A stretch of DNA of 35,254 bases. Origin: Gammaproteobacteria bacterium (GTDB lineage Bacteria > Pseudomonadota > Gammaproteobacteria > JAABTG01). Positions within the stretch are counted from its first letter, which is position 1. The number at the start of each line of letters is the position of its first letter. The notes below the pieces were generated by a model. It saw nothing but the letters and a program-made list of their open reading frames with translations, did not search any database and was not told the origin of the DNA. Made by a program: the position numbers and the translations under genes. Of the stretch, positions 1 through 695 are shown piece by piece. The stretch is from the NCBI GenBank assembly GCA_017999615.1, contig JAGNLM010000017.1, positions 1 to 35,254 on the forward strand, in the 5' to 3' direction.

Positions 1-122
1 GGACAATTCAACAGGTTAGCGCCGACGTCTGAGCCTGGAGGCTTGTGAAGCGCCGCATCTTCGGCCTTCGGCGCATAGTATAACACGCTGTTTTGGCTGG
101 CGTTTATGGGTTTCTTTCCAGG
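1..122. other. Lower-GC segment of unknown origin fused to trkH
   Basis: This segment begins where TrkH homology stops. It counts at about 54% GC against roughly 70% around it. It contains an imperfect palindrome at about 50-74 with GCGCCG and CGGCGC arms. No protein family is recognisable in any frame. It could be the end of a mobile element, the edge of a genomic island or an assembly chimera; only the first bases beyond the window could tell. Confidence 0.4.
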
Positions 123-695
123 CACTACGTAGACCAGCCACAGATTCTTCGCCGTCTCGCTGATCCGGGGGGTGAGCTTTTCCTCCTTCATCGGGCCCGG
201 CGTTTCGGCGCGGTAGAGCTGCATGCCGCCGATCCCGAGGAGCGGGAACAGCGCCACCGCCAGAACCACGACGCCCATGCCCCCGACGAAGCAGAGCTGC
301 ATGCGGTAGAAGTTGATGCTGTGCGGCAGCGTCTCGACCGTCGGCAAGACCGAGGCCCCCGTGGTCGTGAGTCCGGAGACGGCCTCGAAGAAGGCATCCA
401 CCAGGCGCATGTGCGGGGCGTCGGACAGCATCAGGGGGATCGCGCCGAGGAGCCCGAGGGCCACCCAGAACACCGTGACCACGAGAAACCCGTCCGTGGT
501 GTGGACCTCCGGCGTTCGCCCGCGCGTGGGCAGCCAGAGCGCGAAGCCCATCCCGAGCATGGTCGCGAAGGCCTCGACGAACGGGGCGGTCTCGCCATCC
601 TCGTACCACCAGCCGATGGCGATGGGGGGCAGCATGGAGACGCTGAGCACCATCGTCAGCAATCCCAGCAGGTACAGGATGGTCCGCAGACGCAT
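3..695 (-). CDS. trkH: Trk potassium uptake protein TrkH, N-terminal part, runs off window with abnormal tail
   Basis: Membrane subunit of the Trk K+ uptake system. Reading from ATG at 695 gives 231 open codons to the window edge. Residues 1-190 follow TrkH closely: a first transmembrane helix (about 5-25), helices near 70-90, the first selectivity-filter loop SGLTTTGAS at 107-115, then FVGGMGVVVLAVA (about 136-148) and the family stretch LYRAETPGP (160-168). After LWLVYV (185-190) the family would continue into another hydrophobic helix. Here the frame instead reads a polar sequence beginning VPGKKPINAS with no TrkH character. The DNA under that tail (about 1-122) is near 54% GC, well below its surroundings. 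I infer that the gene is broken by an insertion or rearrangement, or that the window starts at an assembly junction. Full-length TrkH is about 480 residues and has four pore loops, so this form would not be functional alone. The gene lies downstream of tRNA-Leu on the same strand. Confidence 0.8.
   Translation of the reverse strand, partial: MRLRTILYLLGLLTMVLSVSMLPPIAIGWWYEDGETAPFVEAFATMLGMGFALWLPTRGRTPEVHTTDGFLVVTVFWVALGLLGAIPLMLSDAPHMRLVDAFFEAVSGLTTTGASVLPTVETLPHSINFYRMQLCFVGGMGVVVLAVALFPLLGIGGMQLYRAETPGPMKEEKLTPRISETAKNLWLVYVVPGKKPINASQNSVLYYAPKAEDAALHKPPGSDVGANLLNC

Follow-up and report, generated by a model that had tools for sequence, protein, structure and literature searches.

The first 124 bases of the window, which is the whole 35,254-nucleotide stretch of DNA analyzed here and the complete contig C17 of a 21-contig, 2.47-Mb genome (G000), are very probably the end of an insertion-sequence-like mobile element that has inserted into trkH and of which the genome contains at least two copies sharing the same end. 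One of the two trkH copies of this genome is interrupted by this insertion-sequence-like element, and gene interruption of this type is an ordinary event. One copy of the element would have inserted into codon 190 of trkH and would have duplicated 3 to 4 bp of the target, namely, CTAC in the orientation of the window or GTAG in the orientation of the gene. An assembler with a k value of 127 would have failed at this repeat, leaving contigs C17 and C12 to end with the same 127-mer and contig C16 to start and end directly at target duplications, while the short, collapsed interior of the element would have been left out of the contig set.

Interruption of trkH at the start of the contig

The Pfam TrkH domain (PF02386) covers residues 39 to 190 of a minus-strand frame at positions 126 to 695 (E = 5.6e-33). 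The initial annotation had described an abrupt end of TrkH homology within a frame that continues, and this description held: the match ended at residue 190 and gained only one residue when the remaining open frame, which runs on for some 40 polar residues down to base 3, was added. The 41-residue open frame at bases 3 to 125 had no match in Pfam or NCBIfam at an E value of ≤1. A lower GC content had also been reported and was confirmed, with 54.8% for bases 1 to 124 versus 67.2% for bases 129 to 695 and 72.7% for the contig; values as low as that of bases 1 to 124 occurred in 222 of the 35,002 other 124-base windows of the contig. The exact junction between the element and the target duplication lies at 124/125. 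It falls a few bases within the region of TrkH homology, since the duplication consists of trkH sequence. Homologues of trkH have no counterpart of bases 1 to 124, as matches in the plasmid collection begin at query base 126 at the earliest among the records listed (5 of 30). An imperfect palindrome noted in the initial annotation does exist inside the element at positions 19 to 74 (arms at 19 to 32 and 61 to 74; 79% complementary) but folds no better than shuffled sequences (z-scores of −0.12 and −1.08), and an RNA or hairpin function was rejected.

In a search of the genome with the intact paralogue, three places were detected: the paralogue itself on C2 (483 amino acids), residues 1 to 190 on C17 and residues 190 to 482 at C16:1-879. 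The 5′ part of the interrupted gene (codons 1 to 190; positions 125 to 695, minus strand), identified by both Pfam and this protein search, is therefore continued from the very first base of C16, where the 3′ part sought elsewhere in the genome was recovered. Neither half contains a stop codon. The trkH flanks, C17 up to base 129 and C16 from base 1, were joined by script with one copy of the duplication retained and yielded a frame of 483 codons whose only stop is terminal. The product of this frame was identical to that of the intact second trkH (C2:36474-37922) at 376 of 483 residues (78%) without gaps. This unbroken, gap-free frame indicated that trkH was formerly whole and is now split. 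As both halves are free of stop codons and the 124 bases at the two element ends do not differ, the insertion is probably recent. In a genome of the same genus (G003), contig C201 carries a trkH gene with 80% identity to the window copy, matching the value for the C2 paralogue. Only one trkH is seen in G003, but the assembly of that genome breaks at the other locus.

Target duplications and a second copy of the element

Contigs C17 and C12 begin with the same 127 bases and diverge at base 128. The segment is thus repeated identically at an unrelated locus (C12:1-127), and no other place in the assembled genome matched it at a comparable score. On C17, the element ends in CCAGGCA and is followed by CTAC (positions 125 to 128) and then by GTAGACC. 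Contig C16 starts with GTAGGCCTC; its bases 1 to 4, GTAG, are the other copy of the duplication, read in the opposite orientation. The far end of C16 reads ...TTTCCCTAT (also given as ...CCCAGTTTCCCTAT), while on C12 the element end GGCA is followed by CTATATAGGCAAATCG. Each copy is flanked by a target-site duplication, CTAC/CTAC for the copy in trkH and CTAT/CTAT for the second copy. In G003, both flanks of the second copy are uninterrupted on contig C63 (...TTTCCCTATATAGGCAAATCG / ...CCCAGTTTCCCTATATAGGCAAATCG...); CTAT occurs once there, and an insert is lacking. This empty site indicated that CTAT was duplicated at the second copy and, by the same reading, that CTAC was duplicated at the first. 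The trkH site falls in a gap of the G003 assembly (the flanking contigs C219 and C43 begin at window position 2762 and C16 position 1540, respectively); for this site, the intact C2 paralogue serves as the uninterrupted comparison. The duplication is 3 or 4 bp in length, the first base being also compatible with belonging to the element; with a 3-bp duplication, the element would end at position 125.

Both targets are perfect 8-bp palindromes of the form CTAYRTAG, CTACGTAG at positions 125 to 132 of the window and CTATATAG for the second copy, and with mismatches they extend to 6 of 7 half-pairs for the trkH site and 8 of 9 for the other. No other occurrence of CTAYRTAG was detected in the 67,425 bases of this genome that were searched. 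These observations are suggestive of a CTAYRTAG target preference in a small sample of two sites. Duplication of the whole 8-bp palindrome was rejected, as C16 starts at GTAG and just four bases are seen to be duplicated by reference to G003.

The second copy is located 52 bases upstream of the ATG of tusA (Pfam TusA; E = 2e-22), between this gene and an open reading frame at positions 255 to 899 of C12 (minus strand), which, judging from its sequence, would encode a NarL-like response regulator. Located upstream of the tusA-dsrE pair at the junction of the C12 start and the C16 end, and downstream of the narL-like gene, this copy might alter tusA expression. In the simplest reading, the layout would be C17, element, C16, element in inverted orientation and C12. 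Each copy retains its own pair of duplications, and hence no recombination between the copies is evident. A tRNA gene was the only Rfam match within positions 1 to 1000 of the window and corresponds to a tRNA-Leu (CAA) at 766 to 851, just upstream of trkH. The idea of a tRNA-adjacent island found no support: both copies sit in CTAYRTAG, one inside trkH and one in the narL-tusA gap, leaving no sign of a tRNA-borne island, and the tRNA gene appears to be a bystander, with no indication that this element integrates there. The other proposal of the initial annotation, the edge of an inserted element, was upheld by the repeat at the C12 end, the target duplication, the location of the trkH 3′ part on another contig and the empty site in G003.

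Shared contig ends and relatives of the element

All 42 contig ends were compared over 400 bases each. Five pairs shared 125 to 127 bases in the same direction (C5/C6, C8/C15, C12/C17, C13/C18 and C19/C21), and five overlapped head to tail by 126 to 127 bases (C2/C20, C3/C13, C4/C10, C5/C20 and C9/C21); two other matches, one of 51 bases within C4 and one of 32 bases between C4 and C6, were shorter. Shared ends of 125 to 127 bases are what a de Bruijn assembler with a k value of 127 leaves at repeats, and C17 stops at a repeat that such an assembler could not resolve. The interior of the element, its other end with the inverted repeat and its transposase are absent from the assembly, both ends of C16 starting directly at duplications. 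As the smallest contig of the genome is 7,878 bp, a contig representing the collapsed repeat, if of the usual length of an insertion sequence, would lie outside this contig set. The four further same-direction pairs mark other unresolved repeats, and the five head-to-tail overlaps would allow contig joining. An open frame in the last 400 bases at the C12 end resembles, by eye, a phage-type integrase.

A blastn search with bases 1 to 127 yielded no match in plasmids or phages at an E value of ≤1, and among 369 genomes of the class only the genome itself matched fully. Partial matches inside the segment were detected in two of these genomes, over 32 bases in G254 (E = 1.2e-4) and 25 bases in G144 (E = 9.0e-4). 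The exact end pattern including the target bases had no matches in the contigs of GTDB representatives or in viral contigs. A shorter pattern with 17 specified bases matched 38 loci, which were judged to be chance occurrences since no likeness beyond the pattern was visible by eye and the upstream inverted partner always had at least 5 mismatches in 18 bases. The 20-base end was found with up to 3 mismatches in 68 of the 369 genomes. Inspection of 30 of these loci revealed a second match in 7, at 6 mismatches only, and none was element-like, although a second end more than ∼1.5 kb away would be missed by this inspection. The 19-base end had no matches in viral contigs, and a text search of the literature with the letters of the end sequence returned no match. 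The DDE_Tnp_1 domain (PF01609) is absent from the assembled genome, and the element interior lies outside this assembly.

The 8-bp palindrome formed by each whole target made the ISPepr1 subgroup of the IS4 family the first candidate. In Table 1 of PMC2266710, this subgroup is listed with YT-AA-YTT ends and duplications of 7 to 8 bp; it was excluded, as neither entry fits the 3- to 4-bp duplication and the end TGCCTGGAAAG observed here. The IS701 family is listed in the same table (PMC2266710) with a 4-bp target duplication, with which the present data are compatible, but the end TGCCTGGAAAGAAACC does not fit the conserved ---YACT-Y--YR end given there, and no transposase is seen here; membership in this family was not supported. 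The general picture resembles that of an insertion sequence that interrupts a gene and breaks a short-read assembly: contig ends carry the repeat, the target is duplicated, the interior is collapsed and the host gene is split across two contigs. It differs in that a single end of the element is visible here. The element is putatively an insertion sequence with a DDE transposase.

Alternative explanations and implications

An assembly chimera, in which trkH and the 124 bases would have been joined in error without being neighbours in the cell, had been proposed in the initial annotation and would account for a segment that stands at a contig end and differs in composition from the contig. This explanation is extremely unlikely in view of two independent junctions with target duplications, a trkH remainder that starts exactly at the duplication on C16 and an empty site at the second junction in the sister genome; the junction is real, even though the contig stops for an assembly reason. 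The same end of both copies points towards C16, a 40.9-kb contig that starts and ends at their duplications, as would be expected if two inverted copies had moved together with the DNA between them as a larger composite element or island. Such a unit is, however, hardly credible when the two copies are flanked by separate duplications (CTAC twice and CTAT twice), when trkH and the narL-tusA region cross the junctions as ordinary host DNA and when G003 joins the C16 end to narL without an insert. The separate duplications and the host DNA across the junctions fit two independent insertions.

A variant of the preferred explanation is that the inserted element is not a full insertion sequence but a non-autonomous element, either a MITE or a derivative lacking the transposase. 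The 124 bases contain no transposase, their 41-residue frame matches no known domain in the searches described above, and the assembly contains no DDE_Tnp_1 gene. However, a transposase need not be encoded in the outermost 124 bases of the element, and only these can be seen. Read pairs usually bridge very short repeats, and the break suggests a longer one. We consider this variant possible but unlikely. A quite improbable extension of the preferred explanation, insertion of an insertion-sequence-like element, is that the element represents an undescribed group of insertion sequences with a strict CTAYRTAG preference, whose inverted copies let the 40.9-kb segment flip; if so, flipping would change the neighbours of the split trkH and the sequence upstream of tusA.

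For annotation, the insertion means that the 231-residue 'TrkH' frame at this contig end represents not a variant transporter but a truncated gene that runs on into a mobile element. It also allows C17, C16 and C12 to be placed in order. One of the two TrkH proteins has likely been lost, as the sequence beyond residue 190 gives way to a short polar tail and the 3′ part has no start. The interrupted trkH would thus be inactive, while the C2 copy presumably still makes TrkH; the C2 gene is intact, and K+ uptake therefore need not be lost in this genome with two trkH copies, one interrupted and the other intact.
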